Notes under the pieces: model-generated | Told to the model about the DNA's origin: nothing | Database searches by the model: none | The model's input: only the letters and a program-made list of their open reading frames with translations | Shown: one piece after another, positions 9,649-44,617 of the stretch | How positions within the stretch are numbered: position 1 is the stretch's first letter | Layout of the letters: each line of letters begins with the position of its first letter | Program-made: the position numbers and the translations under genes | Assembly: GCA_947631685.1 (NCBI GenBank) | Contig: CANRMI010000003.1 | Location: 1 to 64,000, forward strand | DNA length: 64,000 nt | From: an uncultured Lachnospiraceae bacterium | GTDB lineage: Bacteria; Bacillota; Clostridia; Lachnospirales; Lachnospiraceae | Direction of reading: 5' to 3'

Positions 9649-9660
9649 AGCTCCTGTTTC

Positions 9661-10497: not shown

Positions 10498-10931
10498 TCC
10501 AGCACCTCCTCGATCACGTCGGAAATATGCGCCAGTTCTTCCAGCAGAGCCTCCGCTTTTTCTTTTCCGAATCTGTCTATTATCATCCTGACCAGGTGCA
10601 GGTTTTTACTGTGTTCGCCCTTATAAAGGCCGCTTTTTTCTTCATTCAGGCGAATATATACCTGCCGCTTATCCGACGTGGAGCGCTCTCTGAAGATCAG
10701 CCCCTTCTCCTCCATACTGCCCAGCACCCTGTTCATCTGTGACTTTAAGGTTTTCGTCCGCTCACACAGGTCCGTAGCGGTCAGCTTTCCTCCCTGGGCC
10801 TTGCTCAAAATATTGCAGACGAGAGCCTCCTTAAAGGGCATATCCGAAACCACCCTTTCGTTGCTGATCTGCACTGACAGGCGCAGCCACGCGGACAACA
10901 GCCTTTCTTCCAGACTTTCCTGTTTCTCCAT
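10494..10931 (-). CDS. MarR family transcriptional regulator
   Basis: Winged-helix pattern: TATDLCERTKTLKSQMNRVLGSMEEKGLIFRERSTSDKRQVYIRL. Confidence 0.9.
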   Translation of the reverse strand: MEKQESLEERLLSAWLRLSVQISNERVVSDMPFKEALVCNILSKAQGGKLTATDLCERTKTLKSQMNRVLGSMEEKGLIFRERSTSDKRQVYIRLNEEKSGLYKGEHSKNLHLVRMIIDRFGKEKAEALLEELAHISDVIEEVLE

Positions 10932-10957
10932 AAGCGCCTTCTCCTTTTTTTAAAAAA

Positions 10958-10994
10958 ATAGTATACAATGTGAACCGTTCACATTGTATACTAT
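10958..10994. promoter_or_regulatory. Perfect 37-bp palindrome upstream of marR-like gene (candidate autoregulatory operator)
   Basis: atagtatacaatgtgaac-c-gttcacattgtatactat: 18-bp arms around 1 nt. Confidence 0.8.
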
Positions 10995-11048
10995 CATAGT
11001 GTCACGCTGTTGGCAAGGGGATTCTTTTCAAATTTTCCCGCCGGTGCC

Positions 11049-11654
11049 TCAATAATAAATTTTTGCCTTTTCTACCACATCAAACCGGCCGTTTTGCAAA
11101 GACAGCAGGGATACCGTACAGTTGGGCATCTTAATATTCCAGAAGTCCGACATGGGAATCCCGGCTATGGGATTGACGATACTCCGGTTCATGGCACCGT
11201 GTGCCACGATCAATATGGTCTCGTACTCCTTCTCCAGAGGGAGTATTCTTTCCTGCATGAAAGAAGCGCTCCGGCTGTAAAGCTGCGGCAGGGATTCCGC
11301 GCCTTCGGGCGGGACATAATTTCCCGGTTCCCGCAACAGATAATAAAACGGCTCCTGGGGATTGTTCCGCATCTCTTCAATATTGCTGCCCTCTTTTACC
11401 CCAAAGCTGATTTCCTTGAGCCTCTCATCCTTTATCAGTGTAAGCGGGCGGTCCCGCAGCATGATCTGCGCGGTCTCCACTGCCCGGATCAGAGGCGAGC
11501 AGAATACCGCCTCAAACGCTACCTCCTTCAATGCCTCGGAAGTAATTTCAGCCAGCTTTCTGCCGTAGTCATTCAGCGGAACATCCGTCTGTCCCTGGAA
11601 GCAGGTCCTTTTGTTCCAGTCGGTTTCTCCGTGGCGCATCAAATAAATGAACAT
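11049..11654 (-). CDS. Histidine phosphatase (phosphoglycerate mutase-like) family protein
   Basis: MFIYLMRHGETDWNK and ILIVAHGAMNR motifs. Confidence 0.92.
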   Translation of the reverse strand: MFIYLMRHGETDWNKRTCFQGQTDVPLNDYGRKLAEITSEALKEVAFEAVFCSPLIRAVETAQIMLRDRPLTLIKDERLKEISFGVKEGSNIEEMRNNPQEPFYYLLREPGNYVPPEGAESLPQLYSRSASFMQERILPLEKEYETILIVAHGAMNRSIVNPIAGIPMSDFWNIKMPNCTVSLLSLQNGRFDVVEKAKIYY

Positions 11655-11668
11655 AATTCCCTCTCCCG

Positions 11669-12826
11669 CTATGCCTGCCGTATCGTTTCCGCCAGTGCCT
11701 GCAGCTGCTCCTTTGTTTCTTTTTTTACGGTGGACCGGATGGTGACCACAGGTTCCAAAACCGTGATCTCCTTCATGCTTTCCAAGTATTCCCTCATTTT
11801 TTTAGCAGCACTGGGCGCCCAGGAACCGTTCTCCACAAGGGCCACTGTGCGCTTCTGATACATTTTGGCTTTCAGGTGCAGCAGAAAATCCTCCATGGGC
11901 GGGAAAAGCCCCGCGTCGTAGCTGGAAGCCGCCAGCACGATCCTGTCATAGCGGAAAGCGTCCTCCACGGCCTCGGCCATATCGTCCCTGGCCAAATCCG
12001 TGATCGCCACCTTTTCTTCTCCCAGCTGCAAAAGCTGCTCCTGCAGGAAGTGCGCCGCTCCAGCCGTGTTGCCGTGAATGGAAGCATAGGCAATGAATAC
12101 GCCTTTATCCTCCGGCTGATAGCTGCTCCAGGTATTGTACTTGTCAATATAAAATCCCAGATTTTCCTTCAGGATCGGACCATGCAGCGGGCAGATAACA
12201 GCAATATCCAAAGCTGCCGCCTTTTTCAGCAGCGCCTGTACGGGAGCCCCGTATTTTCCTACAATATTGAAATAGTAGCGGCGGGCCTCACAGGTCCACT
12301 CTTCTTCCGTATCCAGAGCGCCGAACTTTCCGAACCCGTCCGCGGAAAAAAGCACTTTCTCCTTCTGCTCATAGGTTACCATAACCTCCGGCCAGTGCAC
12401 CATGGGCGCCATAAAAAACTGCAGCGTGTGCTCACCCAGAGAAAGCGTGCCCGCTTCCGCTGCTTCCAGCTTCTCCTGCCCTTCCACATCAAAGAAATTG
12501 GGCAGCATGGAAAAGGTTTTGGCGTTTCCCACCAGCGTAATGTCCGGATAAGCCTGCAGCAGCTTCCCGATCGTTCCCCCATGGTCCGGCTCTAAGTGGG
12601 ATATCACTAGGTAATCCGGCTTGCGTCCGTTCAGTTCCCTTTGCAGATTGGACAGCCACTCTTCTGAACGCCGCATATCCACGGTGTCCATAATCGCGAT
12701 CTTTTCATCCAGTATGATGTAGGAATTGTAAGAAATACCGTTAGGTACTTCGTACTGCCCCTCAAACAAATCAATGTCCTTGTCGTCCACACCGATATAT
12801 TTAATATTGTTCGTAATCTTAACCAT
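11669..12826 (-). CDS. fprA: FprA-type A flavoprotein (metallo-beta-lactamase + flavodoxin domains)
   Basis: SHLEPDHGG, MVHWPEVM di-iron motifs, flavodoxin YASIHGNTAGAA. Confidence 0.92.
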   Translation of the reverse strand: MVKITNNIKYIGVDDKDIDLFEGQYEVPNGISYNSYIILDEKIAIMDTVDMRRSEEWLSNLQRELNGRKPDYLVISHLEPDHGGTIGKLLQAYPDITLVGNAKTFSMLPNFFDVEGQEKLEAAEAGTLSLGEHTLQFFMAPMVHWPEVMVTYEQKEKVLFSADGFGKFGALDTEEEWTCEARRYYFNIVGKYGAPVQALLKKAAALDIAVICPLHGPILKENLGFYIDKYNTWSSYQPEDKGVFIAYASIHGNTAGAAHFLQEQLLQLGEEKVAITDLARDDMAEAVEDAFRYDRIVLAASSYDAGLFPPMEDFLLHLKAKMYQKRTVALVENGSWAPSAAKKMREYLESMKEITVLEPVVTIRSTVKKETKEQLQALAETIRQA

Positions 12827-12923
12827 ATATCCTCGCATTCTGCCGCCAAAACGGCTCCCATGATAGAAAGAGAAGGCGAAAATATCCTTTCCGCCTTCCC
12901 AGTCTTCGCTATGTCTGTATCGA

Positions 12924-13469
12924 TCAGCTGAAATATCTCTTCAGCAGTCCTTCAAAGGCTTTGCCGTGGCGGGCCTCGTCACGGGCCATTTCATGTACGG
13001 TATCATGGATCGCGTCCAGATTCAGCGCCTTTGCGCGCTTAGCCAGATCGGTCTTTCCCGCGGTAGCGCCATTCTCTGCGGCAACCCTCATTTCCAGATT
13101 CTTCTTGGTGGAATCCGTTACCACCTCTCCCAGCAGCTCCGCAAACTTGGCAGCATGCTCTGCCTCTTCAAAAGCTGCCTTCTCCCAGTACATACCGATC
13201 TCAGGATAGCCTTCCCTGTGCGCTACTCTCGCCATAGCCAGATACATACCTACTTCGCTGCACTCGCCTTCAAAGTTGGCACGCAGATCAGCCAGAATAT
13301 CCTCGGGAACGCCCTTTGCCACACCTACTACATGCTCTGCGGCCCAGGTCATATCCCCGGACTGCACGTTGAATTTTTCTGCGGGAGCATGGCAGACAGG
13401 ACATTCTGCAGGTGCCGCGTCTCCTTCATGTACATACCCGCATACGGAACAAACATACTTCATAATCAT
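12924..13469 (-). CDS. Reverse-type rubrerythrin (N-terminal rubredoxin domain, C-terminal ferritin-like domain)
   Basis: [30 protein letters not shown] at the N-terminus, then helical E...ExxH ferritin-like motifs. Confidence 0.9.
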
Positions 13470-13546
13470 TACCTCCTGAATATATAGATTTTTATTTTAT
13501 CCTAGTGTAAAACTTGAATGTATTGTAACACATATTCTTCATTTCT

Positions 13547-14638
13547 TCAATTGTTCTTTTGGCTGGCTGCCAGATCCTCAAACTTCTTTTTGCAGTTCCG
13601 GAAACACTCCAGAAGCTTGGGAGAGAAAATACCGCATTCGCCGTTGATTATCATGGAGAATGCCTGCTCCTTGCTGTAAGCGCTCTTATAGACTCTTTCA
13701 TTCACCAGCGCGTCATACACATCCGCAACGGATACCAGCTGGGCGGAAACGGGAATTTCATCCCCTTTTAATTTGTCGGGATAGCCCCGCCCGTCGTACC
13801 TTTCGTGATGGTGCCGGCATATCTCGTAGCTGGCCTTCTCATATTCCTCGTCCCATACATCCTTGATATTGCTCAAGATCTCACAGCCCCGGGTGGTATG
13901 GGATTTCATGTATTCGTATTCATCCTGCGTCAGCTTTCCGGGCTTTAACAGAATATTGTCGGGAATGGCTATCTTGCCGATATCATGCAGGGCGCTGGCG
14001 GAAACAATCACCTCGATCCGCTTCTCCGTCAGTCCGTACTCCGGGTACTCCTTCATCATTTCCCTGGCCAGGATCTCCGTATAGCCCTTGACACGCATAA
14101 CGTGCTCGCCGCTCTCTAAGTTTCTGGATTCTACCACCGTACCCAGGATGTCGATGATATTTGTATTGCTCTTTTGCAGCTTTGCCGCCTGTATCTTTAA
14201 AAGCTGATACTGCTTCTTTAAGGTTTCGGTCTGCCCTTCGACCTTTTCCTCCAAAGAATTTTTATACATGAACAGCTCCGCGATATTGTTTACCCTCCGC
14301 CTGACAAGCGCGTTGTCAAAAGGCTTCCGGATGAAATCGGAGATACCGAAATCAAAGCACTGTTTCTCTACTTTCAGAGACTGTTCTCCGCTGATGATCA
14401 GCACCGGTACTTTTTTCATCCACCCCTTTTCCTGCAATACGGCAAGCACTTCCAGGCCATCCATTTCCGGCATCACCAGATCCAGCAGAATCACTGCCAG
14501 GTCGTTTAAATTCTGCTCTATCATTTCCAGAGCCTGTCTGCCGTTCTCGGCCTCCATTACGGAATACTCCTCTTCCAGTATTTCGGTGAGAATCTCTCGA
14601 TTTAACTCCATATCGTCTACGATAAGTACCTTCTTCAT
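13547..14638 (-). CDS. Response regulator with HD-GYP domain (c-di-GMP phosphodiesterase-like)
   Basis: REC domain (LIVDDMELNREIL, LLDLVMPEMDG, LIISGE) and HDIGKIAIPD...HHHERYDGRGYPDKLKG. Confidence 0.92.
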   Translation of the reverse strand: MKKVLIVDDMELNREILTEILEEEYSVMEAENGRQALEMIEQNLNDLAVILLDLVMPEMDGLEVLAVLQEKGWMKKVPVLIISGEQSLKVEKQCFDFGISDFIRKPFDNALVRRRVNNIAELFMYKNSLEEKVEGQTETLKKQYQLLKIQAAKLQKSNTNIIDILGTVVESRNLESGEHVMRVKGYTEILAREMMKEYPEYGLTEKRIEVIVSASALHDIGKIAIPDNILLKPGKLTQDEYEYMKSHTTRGCEILSNIKDVWDEEYEKASYEICRHHHERYDGRGYPDKLKGDEIPVSAQLVSVADVYDALVNERVYKSAYSKEQAFSMIINGECGIFSPKLLECFRNCKKKFEDLAASQKNN

Positions 14639-26098: not shown

Positions 26099-28123
26099 TC
26101 AGAATCTTGGCAGTAGTCCCAAATAGGTCTGCGTAATCAGGTTATCCTCTATCACAATCCGATAGTAACCGCCCCCACTGTCAACCGCGCAAAAGCAGTT
26201 TTCACCGTTTGTCCAAATGCTTTGAATATCCGTAAGCTCCAGCTTTTGAAAAGTCAGCTCCTTCAAGGCCATATCATAATATGTATCCGTCTGTGGATCT
26301 CGGCCGGGATTGGCCACCTGCCAGAGACCATATTCCACATCTGCAGTATCGTAGGTCTCATATTTGCTGATAAATACCTGCCCGTCATCAGTCAGAAACA
26401 TCGTATTCTCTTTTCCTGATTTCATAGAAATGATTTGGGGACAGCCGGAAGCAGCATCGTCTATGTCTAAAATGTCCGCCACACGGATTTCCACAAACTC
26501 CCCATTGCATTGTTCTCGCAGTGTATCCGGATGAGTCAGCACGAACTCCTTATCATGATATTTGATCCTGTCACTGTTCCAATAATATAAAGTACCATTC
26601 TCTTTGCTCAGAAACACAGTATAGGGATCCGAACTCACAGTCTTCACACCCTCTACGCCTTTCAGATCATAATAAATCAAGCATTCATATTTTCCACCCT
26701 CACTCAGAACCGTAATTTCCGGAATATCTTCCGGCAGAGGCGGCCAGGCAATAACCTTATTTTTTCCAGGCTCAACTTCTCCTTCATGGGGAAAAATAAA
26801 CGCATAAGCATTGCTGTTATATCCCTCATAGAAAAAACTCATGAGCGAAAAGATGCTGCCGTCTGTTCTGACAAAATAATCATAATTGCCAGCGCCTGCC
26901 TGCATACAGTCTATCTCTCCAAGCATTACATCCTCTTGTAACGGTGAAAAGTTAGTGAAAGAACCATATACCCACGGGTAATCTGATACATACAGACTTC
27001 CATCCTTGTTCAATGCATACAGTTTTCCGTTTTCTGCCGTGATATCAGTTATGTTTTTCAGATTCCGCATCATAAAGGGTGTATCAATATGGGCAGAACT
27101 GTCTACCGGCTTCATAGGAATCACATTCTCTTTCACTCCCCACGTATACACATCACCCTGCTCGGTGAGGGCAAAAACATTCTCTCCTCCATCCTCCAAT
27201 TTTACGACATGCTCCAACCCTTCTATCCGCTGCGGCTCTGAGACAAAGCTTTCTGCGATTCCGAGCTTTCCTTCCTCATTATTCCCCCATCCCCACACGC
27301 TCCCGTCATCGTAAAGGACAAGAAAAAAGTCCTCTCCAACGACTATTTCTCTTTCTGATGTTTCTTTCTGAGCATTCATCTGTTTTATATTATCACTGGG
27401 GACAAAACTATCTATCTCCATTTCCACAATCGTTAATTGATTCATAGACGGAAGCGGCTCCGCAAGAAAACATAGTTTGCCTTCTCTAATAAAAAAATTG
27501 GTTGTTTCGTATATGTAAGAATTGTCTCCTGTAAAATAGTTGATAAAACAAGAATTCATATATGTCAGGCACTCATTTTCGCGTTCTGCAGGTATTTCAT
27601 TGCCAATTCCTATTTTATCTTGTGCCATGGCATTTATTATCAGGTTTTGGTACTCTTCCATACTGTAAAAATCAGCTAACCGTAGAAGTTCTCCACTCTC
27701 TAAATTAAAATTGAGACCTACCTCAAAATTACCGCCGTCAGCACTTATTCCTTTTTGCTTCTCTCCTCTAAAATATATACTAAGTACCTTTTCATCCATA
27801 TAGGCAATCTCATAAGCAATATCTGCCCGATCTGTCCACTCATCATCGCTCAAACAATCATCAAACAATATGTGAAAAATTTGTTCATTTATTTTGAGGG
27901 AAACCGCATCTTCCCCATTCAAATAAGGATATTCCACAGTTATCGAATCCTGCGTTGTCCGTTTAACCATTTGAGCGCAGGAAACATAGGTGTTCTCTTC
28001 TTTCGTAATGGCAGCATATATGGATGAATTGGTGTAAAAGCAAACCAGGTATCCTAAACCAAAGGCCAGGCCCGCGCATATCACACCACAGATCATCCAG
28101 TTTCTTATTCCTTTTTTATTCAT
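26099..28123 (-). CDS. Membrane-anchored RCC1-repeat protein with RsiV/DUF3298-like N-terminal region
   Basis: N-terminal TM; ITVEYPYLNGEDAVSLKINEQI...; RCC1-type LYDDGSVWGWGNNEEGKLGI and LTEQGDVYTWG. Confidence 0.7.
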   Translation of the reverse strand: MNKKGIRNWMICGVICAGLAFGLGYLVCFYTNSSIYAAITKEENTYVSCAQMVKRTTQDSITVEYPYLNGEDAVSLKINEQIFHILFDDCLSDDEWTDRADIAYEIAYMDEKVLSIYFRGEKQKGISADGGNFEVGLNFNLESGELLRLADFYSMEEYQNLIINAMAQDKIGIGNEIPAERENECLTYMNSCFINYFTGDNSYIYETTNFFIREGKLCFLAEPLPSMNQLTIVEMEIDSFVPSDNIKQMNAQKETSEREIVVGEDFFLVLYDDGSVWGWGNNEEGKLGIAESFVSEPQRIEGLEHVVKLEDGGENVFALTEQGDVYTWGVKENVIPMKPVDSSAHIDTPFMMRNLKNITDITAENGKLYALNKDGSLYVSDYPWVYGSFTNFSPLQEDVMLGEIDCMQAGAGNYDYFVRTDGSIFSLMSFFYEGYNSNAYAFIFPHEGEVEPGKNKVIAWPPLPEDIPEITVLSEGGKYECLIYYDLKGVEGVKTVSSDPYTVFLSKENGTLYYWNSDRIKYHDKEFVLTHPDTLREQCNGEFVEIRVADILDIDDAASGCPQIISMKSGKENTMFLTDDGQVFISKYETYDTADVEYGLWQVANPGRDPQTDTYYDMALKELTFQKLELTDIQSIWTNGENCFCAVDSGGGYYRIVIEDNLITQTYLGLLPRF

Positions 28124-29792: not shown

Positions 29793-32630
29793 CTATTTCA
29801 TTACTATTTTCATCAATGATGTATAGCTGTCTACAACATCATAAACAACATTATCATCACTGATAGCCTTAAAATGTTCTCTCGCGCAATGGATCTTCGA
29901 GTCCTCAATTAGTCTAAGCTGCATGGAGTTCATGGATCCTTTCGTTTCCGCCACGAAATAAATGTGCTTTACACTTCCTTCATAAAAAGCAATGGCCCAG
30001 TCTGGATTATAATGCCCGACCGGAGTGGAAATATAAAATCCGTCCGGCAGTTTCACATATACGGCAACATCTTTATTAGTATCCAGATCTGTTGCAAAAT
30101 CACGTTCGTTAGAAGAATCATATACGATATGATCATACAGATGCTTCTTTGCCTTCATAGCATTGACACCCAGCTTACCTTTGATAGTCGGATCCGTAAA
30201 AATATCCGTTCCATACTGCTCATCCAAAACATTGTAAGTGATATGTTCAATAATCGCTGTCGCTTTTTGATCATTGATCAGCTGAGCTGCTTTTGATATA
30301 AACTCTTCTGGATTATCTTTAAACTGATTAAAAACCGCCGGTTGAATGCCCTGCAAAATAGCAATAATAGCTTTTCGTGTAAGTCCGGTCTCATCTACTA
30401 ATTTCCCGATCAGATCATACTTGACATTGGAATTGGCTGCTACAGAAACACTATAATTTCCAGATTCCTCTTTCACAAAAGACGTCCCTGCGACCAAGTC
30501 TTCTTTCGATTTAATGGAATTCATTGCACCAGTCTCTACCCGAAAATAAATCTTTGCTACCTGAAGTTTTGAATCAAGGGAAGCAATGGACTTCCTAACC
30601 AATTCATCGGTGTCGAAATCTACTACATATACGGACTTTGCATTAATCTTTGACCATAGCGCCTTAAATTCTTTGCTATTTAACTTTTCATCATCCACCT
30701 GTAGTTCCACATTGTTACTGCGTGCATTTTCCGGCTGCATAGCCTTACTGTCATAGATCGAATCAATAATTTCTATAACGCTTGCAGCAAAATCTTTTGC
30801 TTCTTCCGCAATCTTGATCTCGCCGTTTGCCTTATCTTTATAATATTTATCAGTCAATTCTCCCTGCTTATTGATATATCCACTAACGATCAAGTCAAAA
30901 TAAATTGCCGTAGCCACATCGCTTGTAATGATAACCTCGTTACCTTGATTATCCTTAACCAGCTTATCTACAAATAGTTCTCTGGTAACTGCCTTCGGTC
31001 TATCTGCGACAGCCTCCGCTAACTCAGTTTGAAGGCCTTTTGCGAAAGAATCATAGCTTTCACTTGCGATAACAGTAAGCACATTGACATTATGAACATC
31101 GTTGCCAAGCGCATTAATATCCATACGCTCACCATTCTGATTCACACAAAGTCTTAAGCCACGCCCTACTTCCTGCCGTTTACGAACATCACTGTTGCTT
31201 TGTTTCAACGTACAGATCTGAAAAACATTCGGATTATCCCATCCTTCTCTAAGGGCAGAATGCGAAAAGATGAAACGCACCGGAGATTTTTGAGGATCAC
31301 GATCCAAAAGCAATTCTTTATTTTTCATAATCAGCTCATACGCGCTTACATCATCGGAAGTAGTTTCTTTTCTTCCAACCTTAGAGTTGATCATCTTTCC
31401 TTTTCCATCTACAGAGAAATACCCTGCGTGAGTCTTTTCTACTGGAATCGACTGTAGATACTTAATATAATCGTCCTCACCTAAAGACAGCTGCATGTTA
31501 TTCAGAATATCTTTATATTCTTCTTCAAACATGACCGCATACTTTCCATTCACCGGCTGATTCGCATCGTCATACTCGCGATAGTTTACCACTTCATCTA
31601 TGAAGAATAGAGACAGCACTTTGATTCCCTTATAAAAAAGCTGGCGCTCCTTCTGCAGATGGGACAGTATGGTTTCCCGGATCTGAATACGGCGCAGCTG
31701 ATCTTCATCCACAGCGCCAATAACATCTCCAGCATAAATCTTGATACCGTTGATAAACTCTACAGAATCATCACGGCCATCAATATGGCTCACCACAAAG
31801 CCATTCTTATATTCTTCAAGACCGTTGGAATAGTCATAAAGATTATCCCCTTCTTTTACGATCTTGCTTTTCTTCTTCGTAGCGCCGCCCGCCATCTTCA
31901 TTTCAAAATGGAGCGTAGCCGTCGGATCACTTTTTGACAAATTGATGCTTTCCAGATACAGATAACTGTCCGTAGCCGTACTACCTGTTTCCGTAATACC
32001 CTTAACAGCAATCTTTTTAACTAAACGCTTATTGTACGCTTCCATGGCATCCAGACGATATACCATGTTATAAATACTATCGCTCTTATGTGTAGCAGAA
32101 TATCTAAGCGTAATCATCGGATTAAACTGCTTCAAATTCTCTTTTGTCTGCTTGCCTTCCACCGACTGAGGTTCATCAATAATCAGGATCGGATTCGTCT
32201 TAGCAATAATGTCAATCGGCCTACGTGAACGGAACTCATCCAGTTTCATATAGATTCTTCTGGCGTCCTTACCCTTTGCATTAAATGCCTGCGAATTAAT
32301 GATCATCACATTAATAGCACTATCTGAAGCAAAGCGGTCTATCTCCGTCAGTTGCGCAGAATTGTATATAAAAAAACGAATCTTTTTCCCATACTCTTCT
32401 GCAAAGTGTTCCTGTGTCATCTCAAATGACTTGTATACACCCTCACGAATAGCAATGCTCGGAACTACAATGATGAACTTGCTCCAGCCATAAGCCCGGT
32501 TTAATTCATACATCGTCTTAATATAAGTATAGGTTTTACCCACGCCCGGTCCTGCTGTTATGAGAACAGGACCATCTGCAGTGGCTATTGCCTTTCGTTG
32601 TCCTTCATTAGCATTTCCGAAATCAAACAT
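29793..32630 (-). CDS. Type III restriction enzyme Res-like helicase/nuclease with atypical N-terminus
   Basis: KFIIVVPSIAIREGVYKSFEMT, NPILIIDEPQSVEG, FTLRYSATH-like LRYSATHKSDSIYNMVYRLD, QEVGRGLRL, C-terminal NPDWAIAFYEG...FVAETKG nuclease motif. N-terminus NEGQRKAIATADGPVLITAGPGVGKT is UvrD-like. Confidence 0.85.
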   Translation of the reverse strand: MFDFGNANEGQRKAIATADGPVLITAGPGVGKTYTYIKTMYELNRAYGWSKFIIVVPSIAIREGVYKSFEMTQEHFAEEYGKKIRFFIYNSAQLTEIDRFASDSAINVMIINSQAFNAKGKDARRIYMKLDEFRSRRPIDIIAKTNPILIIDEPQSVEGKQTKENLKQFNPMITLRYSATHKSDSIYNMVYRLDAMEAYNKRLVKKIAVKGITETGSTATDSYLYLESINLSKSDPTATLHFEMKMAGGATKKKSKIVKEGDNLYDYSNGLEEYKNGFVVSHIDGRDDSVEFINGIKIYAGDVIGAVDEDQLRRIQIRETILSHLQKERQLFYKGIKVLSLFFIDEVVNYREYDDANQPVNGKYAVMFEEEYKDILNNMQLSLGEDDYIKYLQSIPVEKTHAGYFSVDGKGKMINSKVGRKETTSDDVSAYELIMKNKELLLDRDPQKSPVRFIFSHSALREGWDNPNVFQICTLKQSNSDVRKRQEVGRGLRLCVNQNGERMDINALGNDVHNVNVLTVIASESYDSFAKGLQTELAEAVADRPKAVTRELFVDKLVKDNQGNEVIITSDVATAIYFDLIVSGYINKQGELTDKYYKDKANGEIKIAEEAKDFAASVIEIIDSIYDSKAMQPENARSNNVELQVDDEKLNSKEFKALWSKINAKSVYVVDFDTDELVRKSIASLDSKLQVAKIYFRVETGAMNSIKSKEDLVAGTSFVKEESGNYSVSVAANSNVKYDLIGKLVDETGLTRKAIIAILQGIQPAVFNQFKDNPEEFISKAAQLINDQKATAIIEHITYNVLDEQYGTDIFTDPTIKGKLGVNAMKAKKHLYDHIVYDSSNERDFATDLDTNKDVAVYVKLPDGFYISTPVGHYNPDWAIAFYEGSVKHIYFVAETKGSMNSMQLRLIEDSKIHCAREHFKAISDDNVVYDVVDSYTSLMKIVMK

Positions 32631-32695: not shown

Positions 32696-35185
32696 TTATT
32701 TCTTTTTAATATTTGTTGAAATATCAGTCTCAACAACATTCTTGATTTCAGTCATAATTGGTGTGTAAAAATCCACATCAGCTTTCGGGGTAGATAATGA
32801 AACCACTAATGAGTACCTAATTTTACTATCATACTTATCCAAATAACTTCGTTCTCTCCACCAACCAATTACAGGAAAAACTGCGATATTTTTACAGTCA
32901 CACAATTCTGCTGCTGTTAATTCACAATAATCCGAATGTATTGAGCCTACATCTCGATTTTCTGATCCCAAATACCAGCGTTCGCTTCCACTTGTCCCCT
33001 CGCCTTTATCCTTTTTATCATCTCCACGTAACTTTACATTGATACGTTTCTTAAAATCATCAATATCCTCGTTTGAGTTAATCACATCAAATCTTAACCC
33101 ACACGACGGATAACGATATTTATCCTTCCAGCCGACTTCACCAGGACCGGGTTCAATAAAATATGATAAAGTCACTTTCAAAGTAACCATTTCGTTTTCA
33201 AGTTCTTTCAAAACTTCTGTAGGCCAGGGCAAGGTATGAATATGCATTTCATTCATACTGTTTTTGTTATATGGTTGTAATTCACCTTGAATAACCATAT
33301 TCACACTATTGTTCACACACTGAATTGCTTTTTCCAAATTAGGAATACCATATCCACAAGTTCTTAAAAGTCTCCGACGTCCTTTTGCTTTTGTGTCCTC
33401 GATACAGAATTGTCTTTTCATTTGTTCAGTCCAACTAGCAGAATGAATCATCAATGCCCTAACTGTTTCAGGCCACATATCAGGATATTCAGCAAGTAAC
33501 TGTGAACAAAACCATGCTGCTTGCGCTGCGGCAGAACTTGTCCCCCATATTGTTGAAAAATTCTTAACCAATGGTCTATAATTGGTCGTTAATAACGATA
33601 AATCTGGGCACTCCGAATAATCAGCCCCATTAGTTGCCATGTTTCCTCCATCAAATAACACCTCAGGTTTAACAGGCCACTTACTATTCCACAATTCAGA
33701 AGTAGAATTATACGGAGACATGGCCCCCGCTTCTGCTACTGGATTATAATCTTTAAAAAGCTCATCTGTTATGTTTACATCATCTGAATACGCCCCAACA
33801 GTAATAGCATTCCATGCTTGCCCTGGACTTTCAACACAATGCAATGTATTTGCATCTGGAAATGATACTTTTCTCAATTCTTCTGGATATACATTTCCTG
33901 CGCTAACAACAAAAAGACGCTTTACATTTTCTTCGTTCGCACCAGATGTAATGCTATCTACTGCTGCTGACCACGAAGTCGGACTCCCATCAAAGGTATT
34001 GTATTCCGGAGAAGTCACCGCCATACAAATAACTCTATGTACAAATGGATTGGCTATCTCAGCTAATGACACAGCTTGCTCTGTAACCGCACCATATAAC
34101 TCAGGATTATTTCCACCCGCTGGTGGTAGAATCTTTACCGATTCAATTTTTTGAGGTATCTCTATTTTAGTTTTCCCTAACAATATCTCTTTCAGGTTAT
34201 TATATAGGGCTATTCCAGCCATTTCCGTTCCATGTCCTTGATGATCCCCTTTTCCCCATGCAGAATTTACCGCTTGAACGTGATCTAAATTAATTGCCTG
34301 TGCCAACAAAGGATGCGCTGCTGTAACTCCTGTGTCCAACAAACAAATAGCTACATTGCCATTTGTATAGGTTGTACGTTGTAGTAATTCATCTACCCAT
34401 TCCCTCTGTTCACTATTAGGCAACTCTGAAAAAAAGGTTGTTGCGTCTTGCGCTCGCCGTATTTCCGTGATATATGGACATGCAGCTATTAAGAGTTTTA
34501 GCTGTTCAGCATTTGCATATACCATCTTGACTATACGTTCTGGAAAAACAATATGTTTATCATCTATATGTATTTGATTCTCTGAACATATCAAGGAAAT
34601 ACTTTCCTCAGTTTTTCTCCATGCTCCAATATCACCATTCTTAAAGTCATATCTAAGCCAAATTTCACACCAAACAGGGGTATCTTTAGGCATACTTTCA
34701 GATGTCCCAACCCAAAAAGAATCCAACATTGCCACTTTTATATCATCAATGCTTCTCACCAAATTATTGTTCTTCGGATTTCCCTTCAATGTTTGTTCAT
34801 TTGCATATGCTTCAACTTTTTTAAGGAAAAAGCTTTCTTTTCCAGAAGGGATATAAACTGTAGCCCTAATTATAGATTTTTCTTCATCCTCATGGACATT
34901 GAGCAAACGAATGCCTGCTTTACGATTTTCCAGACTCTTTATAGCCAAGTCATGCCCCTTGGCGCTTAAGAATTCAAGATAAATTCCTTCTTTATAGCGA
35001 ATTGCCGCAACCTGTTTCTGTGACAATGATTTGGAATAGCACTCTTGTAATTTTCTCTGTATAAATGCTGCATGCGTTGCAACTGTACGCTTTGGATAAT
35101 TTGTTGTTATAAGTTTCGATCTCGATGTATAAGGCATAGTTTCAACCGTTTGCGTCAGAAAAATATTTCTTTTTTCTACTGCCAT
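32696..35185 (-). CDS. S8 family (subtilisin-like) peptidase, IetS-like
   Basis: Catalytic motifs LLDTGVTAAHPL, GHGTEMAGIAL, GTSSAAAQAA; directly follows an AAA ATPase gene. Confidence 0.88.
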   Translation of the reverse strand: MAVEKRNIFLTQTVETMPYTSRSKLITTNYPKRTVATHAAFIQRKLQECYSKSLSQKQVAAIRYKEGIYLEFLSAKGHDLAIKSLENRKAGIRLLNVHEDEEKSIIRATVYIPSGKESFFLKKVEAYANEQTLKGNPKNNNLVRSIDDIKVAMLDSFWVGTSESMPKDTPVWCEIWLRYDFKNGDIGAWRKTEESISLICSENQIHIDDKHIVFPERIVKMVYANAEQLKLLIAACPYITEIRRAQDATTFFSELPNSEQREWVDELLQRTTYTNGNVAICLLDTGVTAAHPLLAQAINLDHVQAVNSAWGKGDHQGHGTEMAGIALYNNLKEILLGKTKIEIPQKIESVKILPPAGGNNPELYGAVTEQAVSLAEIANPFVHRVICMAVTSPEYNTFDGSPTSWSAAVDSITSGANEENVKRLFVVSAGNVYPEELRKVSFPDANTLHCVESPGQAWNAITVGAYSDDVNITDELFKDYNPVAEAGAMSPYNSTSELWNSKWPVKPEVLFDGGNMATNGADYSECPDLSLLTTNYRPLVKNFSTIWGTSSAAAQAAWFCSQLLAEYPDMWPETVRALMIHSASWTEQMKRQFCIEDTKAKGRRRLLRTCGYGIPNLEKAIQCVNNSVNMVIQGELQPYNKNSMNEMHIHTLPWPTEVLKELENEMVTLKVTLSYFIEPGPGEVGWKDKYRYPSCGLRFDVINSNEDIDDFKKRINVKLRGDDKKDKGEGTSGSERWYLGSENRDVGSIHSDYCELTAAELCDCKNIAVFPVIGWWRERSYLDKYDSKIRYSLVVSLSTPKADVDFYTPIMTEIKNVVETDISTNIKKK

Positions 35186-35187
35186 AC

Positions 35188-36156
35188 TTATGCCTCCTTA
35201 CACGTGTATACATTTTTTCGTTCGCTTAATAATGCAATTACGGCCTTGTTCGTAATTGGCTCATCATTCAAAATAGAATTTTTAATCGCATCATCACATA
35301 CTCTTGCAATCTCTGCATGACTTAATCCTTCTGCAGCCTTTACCATTTCCCTTGAAATTATAAAATAATTATCATATGCGTTTATTTTGTATTCAAACAA
35401 ACGCTTAATCTCTTTAAACGTAGGCAATGTATAATGCAGTACATCATCAAATCTTCTAAATAATGCTTGATCTAAAAGTTTTTGATTATTTGTCGCTGCC
35501 ACAATAATACTGTCAGAATTATCCTGTTCTATAAATTGTAGAAACGAATTAAGAATTCTCCTCATTTCTCCCACCTCATTATCGAGGTTTCGATCTGCAC
35601 CTATGGCATCAAACTCATCAAAAAAATATACACCAACAGTTGACTCAATGCTGTCAAATATCTGCCTTAACTTTACACTTGTTTCCCCCATGAATTTTGT
35701 CACAAGCTTATCCATTTGTACCGTATATAAAGGTAAAGATAACTCAGAAGCAATGATTGATGCTGTTAGCGTCTTTCCGGTTCCCGGATTTCCTTCAATC
35801 AATATCTTTCTTCTATTAGTCAAACCATACGATGCAAGTTTATTCCTATTTCTGTACTCACTTAAAATTCTTTGGATTTTATCACTAATATCTTCTGAAA
35901 CAATTAGTTCTGATAAATCATGAGAAGGCATTGATAGTGTAAGCATTGGATTAGTTGAAGTAAGCTGAACAATATTTGCTCTTTTGCTTCCAACTCTATC
36001 AATCTGCTTTTTTAAATCACGCGCTAAATTATCGTGCCCAAGCTTGGCTTCGTGCGCTGCAATTTGTAAAACGACAGTTTTAAACTTTTCATCATTACAA
36101 TCGGCATAAGCTTTCACCAAACTTTTTATTTGTTCTGCTGTAGCCATTTCATCCAC
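35188..36156 (-). CDS. AAA family ATPase, IetA-like
   Basis: Walker A EGNPGTGKTLTASIIA, Walker B VYFFDEFDAIG, sensor ATNNQKLLDQALFRRFDDV; 2-nt gap to the S8 peptidase gene. Confidence 0.88.
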   Translation of the reverse strand: MDEMATAEQIKSLVKAYADCNDEKFKTVVLQIAAHEAKLGHDNLARDLKKQIDRVGSKRANIVQLTSTNPMLTLSMPSHDLSELIVSEDISDKIQRILSEYRNRNKLASYGLTNRRKILIEGNPGTGKTLTASIIASELSLPLYTVQMDKLVTKFMGETSVKLRQIFDSIESTVGVYFFDEFDAIGADRNLDNEVGEMRRILNSFLQFIEQDNSDSIIVAATNNQKLLDQALFRRFDDVLHYTLPTFKEIKRLFEYKINAYDNYFIISREMVKAAEGLSHAEIARVCDDAIKNSILNDEPITNKAVIALLSERKNVYTCKEA

Positions 36157-37960: not shown

Positions 37961-39322
37961 TCAGCAAATATATCTTATGCCCCCTTGGCTAAAAACACTA
38001 TCCCTTTTTTTCTCGGTCTCTTCCTTATAACCATCTTTATGAATGATTCTTTTATGCAAATAATCCATAAATTTTTTATAGTTTGGATCATTTTCGCTTA
38101 AATCATCAAGTATCATATATTTACGTTGTAGCATATTTTTGAAACCAGTAGGAGACATCCCTATATGCTTATCTCTAAAAGCTTGTTCCATATCATCTAA
38201 TTTCAGCTTAGAAGGGTGTTTATGTGTTTTCTCCGCGGCTTTCATTACATATTGGGCATCTTCATAATCACCCTTTCTAAAGCTAACAGTGTCCTCATGA
38301 GGGTATCCAGAGTTTTCGTCAACAGCCTCATACATAAAATGAACTTTCTTTTTCTTACCATTAACTTTAACTTCCTTTATCTTGTATATACCTATAACAC
38401 GAGCTTGAACTGTAGCAAATACATATTCAATGTTTAGATTCTTAAACTTTACTTCACTCAATTTCCAATTGCCGCAAACAGTATCCCTTATTGCCTTATT
38501 GCGTTCGCATCCAGCAGGCTTCTCTAAACACTCAGGATATCCGTTTTTTATATTTATGAGTACTGCATTAACCTTTTCATTTATCAAATCTTCATAAATT
38601 ATTGGTTCTTTGGCAAATTGTTCACAGAATTCTTCAACTGTTCTTGCCGCCGTTGGAATATCTCCATGCTTCTCACCTTCGCTTTGATGTCCTTTAACTT
38701 TATTGGTAAGTTTATCATTCTCTCTGCAATTAAACTTTAAATTGTCAATCTGTAAAAGATTGATGAGCGCAGATTCAACCATAAATGCCTCTTTGCTGGT
38801 CATCCCGCATTTTATGATGTACTTCTCTATTTTACTATCAGGGTTATGAGTTATTTCATTTATTTTGTTAATTTTCTCTCCCAGATCATCTATTTTTTCT
38901 TCTAATTCTTCGAATTTCTCTGATTTTACTGATTTTTTTAGTTCGTCTTTTAATTCTTTAAAATTACCTTTCCTTGCAAGTTCCGAAAGATTTTCCGGAA
39001 GGTCAATCTGAATACCTTCGCCGAATAATTCTTTTATCAGAAGATTAACCTGTTGCTTAGCGTCGAATTCGTGCGACCATACTCTTGCTCCCTTTCCCTC
39101 ACCAATATAAAAAGGGATCAGGCTTCCATCGCTCTTCTTCTCACATAAAGCATATACATAAGACCTATATTCTTTACGATTTTTGGGGTTCGCACTTTCC
39201 GAAAACTCGTCTAGCGCATTAGTAAATTCTTCAATCGTTTCATGATCTTTGCGTTTCTTGATTTCTTCCTTTTCTAACTCTTCATATTGATCTTGTTCCT
39301 TTTTGGTTTGTTCTTTCGCCAT
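37961..39322 (-). CDS. LEM3-like GIY-YIG domain protein
   Basis: YRSYVYALCEKKSDGSLIPFYIGEGKGARVWSHEFDA (YVY...FYIGEGKG.R..H) and coiled-coil insertion. Confidence 0.65.
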   Translation of the reverse strand: MAKEQTKKEQDQYEELEKEEIKKRKDHETIEEFTNALDEFSESANPKNRKEYRSYVYALCEKKSDGSLIPFYIGEGKGARVWSHEFDAKQQVNLLIKELFGEGIQIDLPENLSELARKGNFKELKDELKKSVKSEKFEELEEKIDDLGEKINKINEITHNPDSKIEKYIIKCGMTSKEAFMVESALINLLQIDNLKFNCRENDKLTNKVKGHQSEGEKHGDIPTAARTVEEFCEQFAKEPIIYEDLINEKVNAVLINIKNGYPECLEKPAGCERNKAIRDTVCGNWKLSEVKFKNLNIEYVFATVQARVIGIYKIKEVKVNGKKKKVHFMYEAVDENSGYPHEDTVSFRKGDYEDAQYVMKAAEKTHKHPSKLKLDDMEQAFRDKHIGMSPTGFKNMLQRKYMILDDLSENDPNYKKFMDYLHKRIIHKDGYKEETEKKRDSVFSQGGIRYIC

Positions 39323-39476: not shown

Positions 39477-41750
39477 CTATTTTTTAAAAAAGCATTGCTC
39501 AAACTCCTCCGGATAATGCGCCTTGTAATACAGAAGCTGCCAATGCAGCTGCGCGTAAGTAACGCAGTGTCCCCGTGAAAATAAATACCTGATCTTTCTG
39601 CAGGAATCAATGTACCATTCCGGAATATCATGGTCTTTTAATATCTGCCCCCATTTGTCCAGCCAGTTGTCCCGCCCGGCTCTTCCCTTATAAACATCTT
39701 CCGAGATCCGGCAGGCTATCTTATCATCTATCCCATGTCGGCAGAAATAATCAAAACAATCCTCTCTGGCCGTTATCACTTCATCCAGTGAATATCCCTT
39801 CCGCAAGAGGGATTCTGCATTGTCTTCCCAGACGCCCGTGCCGTACATCAGCCCCTCTGTTTTTACCAAATCCCAGAAATCAATATCTTCCCGGGCAGAA
39901 AGTATTTCCTGAAACCTCTGATTCATAAATGGCATTCCGATCATTTCTTTCGGCAAAAAGCATCCGTCTTTATCTTTGGGAATATCCCTCACGGCCAGTC
40001 TGTCGGTAAGCGAAATATCCCCGAGTGAACAGTTTGTCCTTTTTTCTAATTCAGATAAAAATTCCAGCAGATTTACGCCTGCAATAGTAACGCTATACAG
40101 CAGATCCCTGATCTGATAAAAATCCACGCCCACCGCGACAACTCCATTGCTTTGCAAACGCAAAGGAAAATGCTCCGTTATTTCTCCGTTTCCCTCAGGA
40201 AATATCAGCATTTTTCCGGGGTGCAGCTCGTATTCACCGACGCAATCCGCCAATTCACTGGCATAAACCTCATGTTCCCATTCTTTAAGCCGCAAATGAA
40301 ACCTTGAACAATAGCGGTCTATCATGATTTCCGCCCTTCTTCTCCCGACCGTGCCAGGCGTCCCCGCGCGAAAAGACGCTTTTACGCCGGAAAGGGAGGC
40401 CGTCATATCCTGAACCCTCCTTTGCGCGGAAGGCCGTACATTCAGCTCAAAATCCGGCTCTTTCGCGCCATCTACTCCAAGGAAATTTTCGTATGGCAGG
40501 CAAAAGCCATCCCGGATTAGTTTTTTCCCACATATGGGACAATTTTTTTCCGGAAGCCGATAGCCGATCGCGGCATCCAAGGCATCCGTGTCAAAATCGG
40601 AATATCGGCATTCCGCGCACCGGTAATGCGCTTTCAACGGATTCCAGGTCGTGATCCCGCATAAATACGCCACAAAACTGTTATCGCTGCAGCCCCGAAA
40701 ACCATGCGGCTCATCCGGCATTCCTGTTTTCTCCATAAGTTCCCTCATCAACAGGAATATGGGCTCATGGCCGGCACCGCAGATTCTTGTCAATTCTTTT
40801 TCTATACGCGCGGATACCTCTTGAGGGAGAATCTCCCCGTATAAATTACGGGCATTCGTGTATGAAATATCACTGAGTTTCCGGCTGTCTCCGTCCGCAA
40901 AGGGATACATCCGGTTATTCTCAAACGGCTCTGAAAGTTCAATCTGCTCCGCAAGCATCTTAGGATTGTCAATAACAATCTCCTTTGCCTTTTCCTTTCC
41001 AAGAAACGAAAAGAGTTCCATCATTTCTTCGGTACTTCTTAAATGCGCCTCCACATCCTGCTCCATATAGTCTGTTTTCTCATTGCAATGGCAGTCGTTC
41101 CGCAGCATTTTCCACTCGGTATTTTCCTCACGGTCAAGGTACTTCGCGGCAGATACGGCGATCAATGGTTTGCCAAATTTCCCGGCGGCTTCTATCACCC
41201 ATTCCGTCATATCCTTACTTCCGGTTTCTTCCGTCGGGAACAGCGAATGACAGGAAAACGGCGCTATCTCATAATAGTCAAAAATATCCTCCTTATCATA
41301 ATCCTGACGCGGATATGTATTGTCACAGTTCCATCCGATCAGCAGCCCTTCCCTGCATTCATTCAGATCGCTCAGATAGATCCATCCATTTTCCATCTCC
41401 TGATCCGCATATTTGAGCGCTTTCATAGAGAGGATTTTAAATAAATTTCTTCTTCCAATATCATTTTTTACAAGAACCGTAGCATAATGATCCAACGCTC
41501 CTTCTCCATTGCTCCCGTGTATGTCGTCCCGTATACGGATAACAGAACCGTAGATCAGTTTCAGCTGTTTATCAGCATAATACCGCATTGCGTCATATGT
41601 CTCTGCCCAACCGTCAACGGAAAAAAGGTCCGTTATCGCGATCCCCGCAAGTTCTTTCCCTGCTGCCGCCACCGGCAGTCTTATAGGATCTATGATGCTT
41701 TTCCCGATACTGAAACGCGTCTGACAATGTAATTCCATCCGCTTATTCAT
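39477..41750 (-). CDS. PolC-like (DNA polymerase III alpha, PolC type) derivative, predicted catalytically inactive, no exonuclease domain
   Basis: Collinear with PolC: PHP-like start (ELHCQTRFS, AITDLFS), EEMMELFSFLGKEKAKEIVIDNPKMLAEQIE, HYRCAECRYSDF...KNCPICGKKLIRDGFCLPYENFLGVDGAKEPDFELN, DIPEWYIDSCRKIRYLFSRGHCVTYA. Confidence 0.85.
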   Translation of the reverse strand: MNKRMELHCQTRFSIGKSIIDPIRLPVAAAGKELAGIAITDLFSVDGWAETYDAMRYYADKQLKLIYGSVIRIRDDIHGSNGEGALDHYATVLVKNDIGRRNLFKILSMKALKYADQEMENGWIYLSDLNECREGLLIGWNCDNTYPRQDYDKEDIFDYYEIAPFSCHSLFPTEETGSKDMTEWVIEAAGKFGKPLIAVSAAKYLDREENTEWKMLRNDCHCNEKTDYMEQDVEAHLRSTEEMMELFSFLGKEKAKEIVIDNPKMLAEQIELSEPFENNRMYPFADGDSRKLSDISYTNARNLYGEILPQEVSARIEKELTRICGAGHEPIFLLMRELMEKTGMPDEPHGFRGCSDNSFVAYLCGITTWNPLKAHYRCAECRYSDFDTDALDAAIGYRLPEKNCPICGKKLIRDGFCLPYENFLGVDGAKEPDFELNVRPSAQRRVQDMTASLSGVKASFRAGTPGTVGRRRAEIMIDRYCSRFHLRLKEWEHEVYASELADCVGEYELHPGKMLIFPEGNGEITEHFPLRLQSNGVVAVGVDFYQIRDLLYSVTIAGVNLLEFLSELEKRTNCSLGDISLTDRLAVRDIPKDKDGCFLPKEMIGMPFMNQRFQEILSAREDIDFWDLVKTEGLMYGTGVWEDNAESLLRKGYSLDEVITAREDCFDYFCRHGIDDKIACRISEDVYKGRAGRDNWLDKWGQILKDHDIPEWYIDSCRKIRYLFSRGHCVTYAQLHWQLLYYKAHYPEEFEQCFFKK

Positions 41751-41773
41751 TTAACATCCTCCCCATTGAGACT

Positions 41774-44617
41774 CTAGCTCGCGAACCCCATTCGTATGAC
41801 GGTTTTCTTTTTGGCAGTCAGATCAGGAATATCGCACTCTTCAATAGTCGTGATCCGTTCTTTTGTGATCCCGGATTCCTCATACTGCAATACCCTCTCT
41901 GCCAGATTCATTTCCGCTTCTTCCAAAGTCTTACGCACAAACCGACCGTTTCCGTAATCGCTCTCCGCGCGCGCAATATTGAAGATTTTTCTTAATTTGT
42001 TCATAGCTTCATCAGTGATCGTCATTTGTTTCTTCGAGAGCATAAGTTTTGCAATATCGCACAATTCGTCTGTGGTATAATCTTCAAATTCCACCTGAAA
42101 AGCGATCCTTGAAAGCATCCCCGGATTTCTATCAAGGAACTGACGCATGGGATCCGTATACCCGGCAAAGATTACGATCACATCATCCCTGTGGTTCTCC
42201 ATTTCCTGCACGATCGTATTGATCGCCTCATCTCCAAAACTATTTTTATAGCCGTCGCAAAGTGAATACGCCTCATCTATAAACAGCACGCCGCCCTGCG
42301 CTTCTTTAAACCTTCTTTTGACCAGCGGAGCCGTGGATCCAACATGTTCGCCAATAAGATCCGCGCGTCCTACCTCCACAAAAGTTCCTGTGGACAGAAT
42401 CTTTTCATCCCTCATGATCTCCGCGAACAACCTCGCCACTGAAGTCTTTGCCGTGCCAGGATTACCCGTAAAGACCATATGTAAAGAAACCTTTTCTCTG
42501 GCAATGCCTTTATCGATACAAAGTTTATTCAGCTTATAGTGAGAGATCGCCTTGTGAATGATCTTTTTTACGGAAGCAAGCCCTATCATATTATCAAGCT
42601 CTTTCTTTGCGGTTCCCGGCTTTCTCTCTTCCTTCAGCCCTTCTTCCAACATGCTGATATCATTTTTTGTGATCTGAAATAGTTCACCCTTCTTTAGATT
42701 GCCGGCATCTTTTCCGTCTGAGAGCAGCCTTACCGCCTGATTCTGTGACGCCCTGTCGATCAGGTTTCTTACATATCTTCCGTTGCCGAAGTTATCGATA
42801 TTTCTCACTTTCTCAAAAATAAAATATGCCTCTTTTACCGCATCCTCCGTTACCTGGAATCCACGTTCTTTTATCATCAATTTAAATATATCCGTAAGCT
42901 CGTCGGCAGTGTAGTCCGGGAAGTCGATCCAGTAGGGTATCCTGCTTTTCAAGCCCTCGTTCTTTTTCATAAACTCACGCATTCGCTCATTATATCCTGC
43001 CAGAATAACGATCACATCATTTCTTCTATTTTCCATCTCCTGGATAAGAACCGTGATCGCCGAATCGAGTACCATAGAATAGGCTTCGTCGATAAACAAA
43101 ACACCGCCCTTTGCCGCAAGGAACGCTCCCCGGATAGCCTGGATATAATTCAGACCGGAAAGATCCATTCCTCCTCGTTCTATGAAAGCGCCGCTTTTTA
43201 AGACTCCTTTTTCTTTTGCTATCTCCGCGAATAGTTTGGCGACAGTTGTCTTTGCGCTGCCCGGATTGCCTCCAAAGATCATGTTCATAGAACATGACTG
43301 ATAATCCTTACCCTTTCGCTTTATGCGTTCCCTTTCTATGACATCCGCTGCGAGAATGCTTTCAATCTGTTTTTTGACAATATCCAAACCTATCAGCTTG
43401 TTAAGTTTGTCATATGCCGATTCTGCCGGCTTATCCCTCTCCAGCATAAACGCCTGCGACGAAGCGTAATTATATGTTTGAAGTACGTTCTTATTCAGGC
43501 ACCAGGGTTCAAACTTCTCATACGCCATAAGAACATCCGTCTGAGTGAATTCGCTCCCCGGAAAAAGTTTCATGAATTCAGATGCCTGTCCTGCGTATTT
43601 CGCATATTCCGAGTCCTTTATCAAGGCTTTCATATATGCTATGGCAGCGCTTCTGTCGCCTCTTCCTTCACGAAGCGTAACGGGGATCACATACTTTTTA
43701 ATCTTCGGTAAGAGCTGGTAAGAAAAGCCGGGGTTATCTATATTGTACGCAAAAACAAAAAGACATTCGTTTCTATACTCCTTCAAAAGTTTCTCTATAT
43801 ACTCACAGGCTAAAGTATATTCTACAGGATCATGCCCAAACTTCTCTGTAAGATCAAAAACGATAACGCCTCCGCAATTTCCCTCAATAATCTCCCTAAG
43901 ATAATTTTGTCCACGATACACCTCCGGTTCTATCTCACTGACTATTCCCATACGCCGGCTGCTTATACGTTTTGCTTTTATCAGGCTCTGCGTAAGCGCT
44001 TCTGTCATATCTTTCGCGGCCTCAATACTACGACTGGCTATCACATAATGAACCATGTTCCCCTTGAAATCCGATACATTTTCATGTTCTTCAATATTTG
44101 AAAGTTCCGCGATAAACGCCTCATCATATACAGCTTTCTTACAGTTAATCTTCTTCGAAACAAGTCTTTCCTGGAAATCGAGGTGAAGCGGATTCCGATC
44201 TATGAAGTTGCGGTACGCGTGAAACCACTCCAGGTTTGTTGATTCCAGGAACCTGCCACGCTGATCCGTTAAATTTCTTCTTCTTGCTTCATAAATAAAG
44301 TCAAGCGCCTGGTCCATGGTAATTTCATCAGGATCGGCCTTTATTCTTTTTACCGAAAAGACTTCCTTCAGAATTCCGGTAATATGAGCAAATGTATCGC
44401 TGAAAGTACATTTCTTTTCATCATAAGAAAACATTGCGAATATTGTGTTTTCCTCTTCCCTGTAAGCACAGAAACCCACGCCATTATCCATCTCTCTATA
44501 CATATAGTTATTCACGGCGGCAATCGTGCCCTCATAAGAGTAGCTATTAAGTTTTATTGTTGCTTTCCTGCTTATTTGATCTGAGTTCGCATTCATCGCA
44601 AAGTTATAATATCTCAT
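41774..44617 (-). CDS. Tandem AAA+ ATPase (CbbX/SpoVK-like) with probable third, degenerate N-terminal AAA domain
   Basis: Two P-loops GGNPGSAKTTVAKLFAEIAKE and TGNPGTAKTSVARLFAEIMRD, two Walker B GGVLFIDEAYS; N-terminal GGVIVFDLTEKFG resembles Walker B. Confidence 0.88.
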   Translation of the reverse strand: MRYYNFAMNANSDQISRKATIKLNSYSYEGTIAAVNNYMYREMDNGVGFCAYREEENTIFAMFSYDEKKCTFSDTFAHITGILKEVFSVKRIKADPDEITMDQALDFIYEARRRNLTDQRGRFLESTNLEWFHAYRNFIDRNPLHLDFQERLVSKKINCKKAVYDEAFIAELSNIEEHENVSDFKGNMVHYVIASRSIEAAKDMTEALTQSLIKAKRISSRRMGIVSEIEPEVYRGQNYLREIIEGNCGGVIVFDLTEKFGHDPVEYTLACEYIEKLLKEYRNECLFVFAYNIDNPGFSYQLLPKIKKYVIPVTLREGRGDRSAAIAYMKALIKDSEYAKYAGQASEFMKLFPGSEFTQTDVLMAYEKFEPWCLNKNVLQTYNYASSQAFMLERDKPAESAYDKLNKLIGLDIVKKQIESILAADVIERERIKRKGKDYQSCSMNMIFGGNPGSAKTTVAKLFAEIAKEKGVLKSGAFIERGGMDLSGLNYIQAIRGAFLAAKGGVLFIDEAYSMVLDSAITVLIQEMENRRNDVIVILAGYNERMREFMKKNEGLKSRIPYWIDFPDYTADELTDIFKLMIKERGFQVTEDAVKEAYFIFEKVRNIDNFGNGRYVRNLIDRASQNQAVRLLSDGKDAGNLKKGELFQITKNDISMLEEGLKEERKPGTAKKELDNMIGLASVKKIIHKAISHYKLNKLCIDKGIAREKVSLHMVFTGNPGTAKTSVARLFAEIMRDEKILSTGTFVEVGRADLIGEHVGSTAPLVKRRFKEAQGGVLFIDEAYSLCDGYKNSFGDEAINTIVQEMENHRDDVIVIFAGYTDPMRQFLDRNPGMLSRIAFQVEFEDYTTDELCDIAKLMLSKKQMTITDEAMNKLRKIFNIARAESDYGNGRFVRKTLEEAEMNLAERVLQYEESGITKERITTIEECDIPDLTAKKKTVIRMGFAS

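Follow-up and report, generated by a model that had tools for sequence, protein, structure and literature searches.

A Reduced Accessory PolC Paralogue With Altered Catalytic Residues in a Lachnospiraceae Genome, and Its Relation to PolC Remnants Beside WYL and XRE Regulators

Introduction

About 6% of PolC polymerases lack the 3′–5′ exonuclease (Exo) domain, nearly all of them in Clostridia and Negativicutes, according to the survey of Timinskas et al. (PMC3919608). Several genomes of our family sample encode such a PolC of about 1250–1320 aa that matches without an Exo gap; in the examined ones no catalytic Asp has been lost. Since replicative PolCs without Exo are known (PMC3919608), its absence is by itself a weak sign of degeneracy. 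Further afield, ImuB (Y family) and archaeal PolB2, each catalytically dead or predicted to be so, have a polymerase fold with an altered active site that is kept by selection; they belong to other polymerase families, ImuB acts in a mutasome, and PolB2 proved to be active (PMC8764526).

The window analyzed here (64,000 nucleotides from an uncultured Lachnospiraceae bacterium) contains a 757-aa open reading frame (ORF), referred to below as the window copy. Like the exo-less PolCs (G370, G113, G384, G271, G229), it has a PHP domain that continues without an Exo insertion, whereas those proteins are the main PolC of their own genome, about 1250–1300 aa long, with all palm Asp. The exo-less class of Clostridia is otherwise complete and catalytically intact, which the window copy is not. 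At roughly even odds (about 0.5), it has a maintained, non-catalytic role as a reduced, horizontally acquired accessory PolC paralogue. No such proteins are described in the examined portions of two surveys of bacterial polymerases (PMC12926913, PMC3919608).

Structure of the Window Copy

The ORF starts at 41750 and ends at 39477 on the minus strand, and the plus-strand frame there contains many stops. The features needed below are as follows.

39477..41750, minus strand: 757-aa PolC-derived, predicted pseudo-polymerase, PHP–palm–Zn–thumb–fingers core only (profile, PDB, motif and model evidence)
39960..40280, minus strand: segment aa 491–597, third catalytic position (aa 555) changed from Asp to Thr; relaxed constraint
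40434..40457, minus strand: palm motif aa 432–439, PDFELNVR (PDIDLNFS in PolC), with the first Asp unchanged and Glu in place of the second
40503..40634, minus strand: Zn-binding segment aa 373–416 (CAEC...CPIC); four of four Cys kept
41511..41750, minus strand: N-terminal half of the PHP domain, aa 1–80, running on without an Exo insertion into aa 81–262
41751..41773, minus strand: 23-nt gap between the stop of the AAA gene and the ORF start, with Shine-Dalgarno-like GGGGAGGA ahead of the ATG
41774..44617, minus strand: upstream 947-aa double SpoVK/CbbX-type AAA ATPase; no conserved partnership at other loci

In profile searches the ORF matches NCBIfam PRK00448 (PolC) with an E-value of 4.6e-133 and stays far below both PolC equivalog cut-offs (445 bits against 873; 423 against 1043); its Pfam domains are PHP and DNA_pol3_alpha. 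Residues 3–755 are collinear with Geobacillus PolC (GkaPolC, PDB 3f2b; E 7e-102) from PHP to fingers. An AlphaFold model, for which 31 window and locus sequences were aligned, has a mean pLDDT of 78 (low near residues 145–235 and 586–604), and its best PDB match is again 3f2b, with a TM score of 0.88 by query length; the PHP–palm–thumb–fingers core fold is thus predicted to be present. The collinearity, the missing Exo domain and the motifs quoted by a first-pass annotation of the sequence were correct, and the structure prediction that it had suggested gives the GkaPolC fold. The ORF is a genuine PolC homologue. It is an accessory copy, as the same genome holds an intact 1504-aa PolC (G000:C1).

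With GkaPolC and the host PolC the window copy shares the collinear PHP–palm–Zn–thumb–fingers core, the predicted fold and the four Zn-binding Cys; the Zn-binding segment is its best-conserved part relative to the orthologue L001 (see below). Unlike the host PolC, it begins at PHP, so that the N-terminal domain (NTD) and OB domain are absent together with Exo, and it ends 143 residues before the host C-terminus, which removes the tandem helix–hairpin–helix (HhH) as well as the clamp motif, whose host sequence is NQISLF. These further losses correct the first-pass annotation. Clamp binding, which the same annotation had proposed, is not supported by the sequence, in which a search revealed no clamp-like motif and from which the C-terminal part is missing.

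The nine PHP ligands, HHDHEHCDH in PolC, read H, Q, K, L, V, Y, C, A, K, which means that the first His and the Cys are kept and seven are lost over the whole domain. At the palm catalytic columns the window copy has D, E, T. All PolCs examined, whether canonical, exo-less or accessory in G417, have D, D, D there, as does the sister sequence L001; by this comparison the catalytic Asp losses are private to the window copy. The described loss of catalytic residues thus holds for the Asp-to-Glu and Asp-to-Thr changes, but one of the three palm Asp remains. The GS motif is also changed. Further private losses occur at PolC-invariant sites (including R687Y, P725S, and H636Y), and 13 aa are deleted in frame near aa 153, again in the window copy alone.

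Orthologues and Horizontal Spread

Two close orthologues were found, L001 (68% identical; a roe deer rumen MAG) and L002 (64%; a MAG labelled Lapin-005), both from genera other than that of the window, as judged by genus size and shared coordinates. Both are broken, so that the gene is at best dispensable: L001 carries two frame-changing deletions and a TAG stop, and L002 has lost aa 1–99, has a deletion over aa 391–~600 (the catalytic palm) and contains stops. Random decay of homologues, which the first-pass annotation had set against its reading, is therefore what both close orthologues show, and what the window copy does not.

L001 retains PDFDLN and GIDILA, and hence all three palm Asp; unless L001 regained them, the Asp-to-Glu and Asp-to-Thr changes arose in the window copy after the split. 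The altered GS motif is common to all three copies, and the window copy and L001 also share the lost PHP ligands, which suggests that polymerase function was eroding before the copies separated, while other parts were still constrained.

In each of the three genera a single genome carries the gene (1 of 138, 1 of 28, and 1 of 39), and the 138 genomes of the window genus hold no orthologue besides that of the window genome. The synonymous divergence (dS) is about 1.0 for the window copy and L001, whereas it is saturated for the host PolCs; together with the single carrier per genus, this points to horizontal transfer. Two origins were considered. A phage origin was rejected: viral_contigs with two queries gave no close relative, and tblastn matches in phages and plasmids were all below 60% identity, mostly 25–32%. 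Derivation from the exo-less PolC clade is absent from the best tree, and a common clade has a p-AU of 0.17, so that it is neither shown nor rejected.

Selection on the Window Copy

Under a codon model written for this analysis, omega is 0.21 between the window copy and L001 (639 codons; omega = 1 is worse by 78 lnL units) and 0.19 between the window copy and L002. In a three-way fit the omega of the window branch is 0.14, and a free-ratio model gives no significant improvement over a single omega; this fit uses the 396 codons common to all three copies, mostly aa 100–391 and 669–756, so that a private relaxation of the window palm is not separable in it. On the L001 branch, omega is inflated by the time that L001 spent as a pseudogene.

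Constraint is weakest in the catalytic segment. In the window–L001 comparison, omega for aa 491–597 is 0.34 compared with 0.19 elsewhere (p = 0.0006, uncorrected, eight regions tried). The conservation ratio of residues 536–597 is 0.68 for window–L001, compared with 1.06 ± 0.08 (minimum 0.80) in 430 PolC pairs of similar divergence; the G417 accessory copies, with a ratio of 1.13, behave as real PolCs. This relaxation is not assignable to the window branch alone, because L001 has been a pseudogene for part of the time and the palm of L002 is deleted. The dN/dS analysis that had been suggested thus finds the window frame under purifying selection (omega 0.14–0.21), and purifying selection on the frame combined with a relaxed catalytic segment agrees with the earlier idea of a PolC-derived pseudo-polymerase. 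The simplest reading of these rates would be that the protein is selected for and polymerase chemistry is not.

The best-surviving alternative, a real possibility although one we doubt, is that a formerly active mobile mini-PolC was recently inactivated, is now functionless and is heading to a pseudogene. The decay of both L001 and L002, the three palm Asp still present in L001, and the private deletion and private losses (R687Y, P725S, and H636Y) of the window copy would all fit such a history. However, the 757-codon frame is intact with a clear Shine-Dalgarno sequence, omega is far below 1 with a window branch no higher than the others, and relaxation is focused on one segment rather than evenly spread; moreover, the shared GS and PHP changes place the erosion before the split, with other parts constrained. 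On balance the sequence comparisons speak for a non-polymerase protein that is dispensable and has spread horizontally, more than for a simple pseudogene.

The Upstream AAA Gene and Its Surroundings

The AAA gene and the ORF lie on the same strand with 23-nt spacing, and co-transcription is possible. The ORF could therefore be one half of a two-gene system, being remodelled by the SpoVK/CbbX-type AAA protein or regulating it, although we consider this improbable. A full-length AAA homologue, 63% identical, occurs in the genome G417, which itself has accessory PolCs, and such homologues are rare in the family (among 120 genomes searched at E ≤ 1e-120, only the window genome has one); another AAA gene lies about 1.7 kb upstream of the short PolC remnant L088. 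Yet the G417 homologue is on a different contig with no PolC copy beside it, the genome of L002 has none, and that of L001 has weak partial matches only, so that the suggested clade conserved with the AAA neighbour did not emerge. No window neighbours were found beside the PolC copies at the L001, L002, and G417 loci.

The region is defence-like, with a GC content lower than that of the flank beyond 45.4 kb, and PADLOC 2.0 identified the following features.

29793–32630: type III restriction Res subunit
32696–36156: IetAS-type anti-phage pair (subtilase IetS, AAA IetA)
37961–39322: GIY-YIG protein, weak match to the defence protein PD-T4-3 (3e-8)

No PADLOC 2.0 defence model matches the 757-aa ORF at E 0.01. 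An RCC1-repeat protein is encoded at 26099–28123.

Accessory PolCs and Short PolC Remnants in Lachnospiraceae

G417 encodes three PolCs, of 1516 aa, 1049 aa (no NTD or OB, Exo present), and 826 aa (no Exo); its PolC loci are C15:509139-511388, C3:153886-156999 (L086/L091), and C15:676004-678481 (L035/L092). Like the window copy, the two truncated accessory copies lack the NTD, OB, HhH, and clamp motif and have lost most PHP ligands; unlike it, they keep all palm Asp and a well-conserved catalytic segment, and they are only about 34% (826-aa copy) and 31% (1049-aa copy) identical to it. Judged on these residues, they are possibly active mini-PolCs. In a tree without short remnants they cluster with the window copy and L001 (support 99, long branches).

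Short PolC remnants form a second group. These proteins of about 430–550 aa start at the palm, keep the Zn-binding Cys and have changed catalytic Asp; they occur in about 6 of 299 family genomes, and the window genus has at least five. Where compared they are under strong purifying selection, with synonymous sites saturated in three of four pairs. They resemble the window copy in being PolC-derived, in the lost catalytic Asp and kept Zn-binding Cys, and in lying outside the normal replication genes, and differ in having no PHP domain. Short PolC matches in Lachnospiraceae are not to be taken for replicases. In a tree including all short remnants very long branches joined, and their placement was not used. 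A common origin of the window copy and the short WYL-linked remnants was rejected: derived residues are shared at the background rate only, so that the two look like separate lineages.

Four remnants from several Lachnospiraceae, of about 490–550 aa, have an XRE-type helix-turn-helix (HTH) fused N-terminally to degenerate PolC palm–Zn–fingers.

L034:8931-10415, minus strand: XRE-type HTH–PolC fusion
L089:581-2224, plus strand: XRE-type HTH–PolC fusion
L129:1471-2943, minus strand: XRE-type HTH–PolC fusion
L130:1276-2748, plus strand: XRE-type HTH–PolC fusion

In DNA-damage responses, WYL regulators act as sensors of ssDNA, and their genes are also found together with defence systems (PMC11804915, PMC9122601). 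A WYL-type regulator adjoins the PolC remnant at eight loci, both orthologues of the window copy included, with some of the regulators lying below the Pfam WYL cut-off and assigned by similarity to the others. The pairs are divergent at L087, L103/L142, L104 (where the pair itself is broken), L105/L137, and L134; the WYL gene is downstream on the same strand at L090 and L002; and at L001 it is a downstream remnant with an HTH-like start and the WCX part only. In G557 and G473 no WYL gene other than that adjoining the remnant exceeds the cut-off, and an HMM built from these regulators found none at 100 canonical PolC loci with flanks of about 1.5 kb. L102 was excluded from the adjacency judgement, as its contig ends.

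The window copy shares the loss of catalytic Asp with the WYL-linked class and has no adjacent WYL gene: none lies within the 64-kb window, and the single WYL gene of its genome is elsewhere. Nor is a WYL gene directly adjacent to the XRE-fused remnants, to L088 or to either G417 accessory copy, although there is one about 5 kb away from the 1049-aa copy. Among the papers searched, none has both "WYL domain" and "PolC".

Possible Function

For the maintained, non-catalytic role, the following course is proposed. An accessory PolC paralogue would have been acquired horizontally and cut down to its PHP–palm–thumb–fingers core, with loss of the nuclease metal sites, the processivity modules and the polymerase catalytic triad. 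The kept Zn segment, palm subdomain and fingers may provide a surface that binds DNA, such as primer-template or ssDNA junctions, or a protein partner. The protein would then be a sensor or co-regulator within a variable region of defence type, and not a replicase. DNA binding and a decoy function, both named by the first-pass annotation, are candidate roles. By analogy, a regulatory or sensing role appears likeliest, because WYL and XRE regulators recur beside or fused to related PolC remnants, the window copy itself having no WYL gene nearby. That it is still a polymerase, perhaps a specialised extender, working through altered acidic residues (one Asp and a conservative Glu are kept, and archaeal PolB2 was predicted inactive before purified Dpo2 proved to be a robust polymerase; PMC8764526) is very improbable, since Thr stands at the third Asp position, the GS motif has changed along with several finger residues that are invariant in PolC, and the catalytic segment is precisely where constraint is weakest.

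If selected dead replicase copies persist, the C-family polymerase fold has been reused beyond DNA synthesis, as ImuB has in the Y family. The dead PolCs beside WYL or fused to XRE are the more interesting result, and their mechanism is one that we only infer. Tentatively, and with less confidence than for the maintained role of the window copy, Lachnospiraceae may have repeatedly domesticated PolC into dead proteins that work with DNA-binding regulators (WYL adjacent, XRE HTH fused), for example as sensors that signal replication problems or invading DNA to a transcription switch. In that case the window copy would be a long, PHP-bearing example parted from its WYL partner. The WYL/XRE association makes the idea directly testable.

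At L088/L138 (about 9431–13664), the short PolC remnant and the SpoVK/CbbX-type AAA gene upstream of it are on the same strand, an arrangement that recalls the layout in the window.
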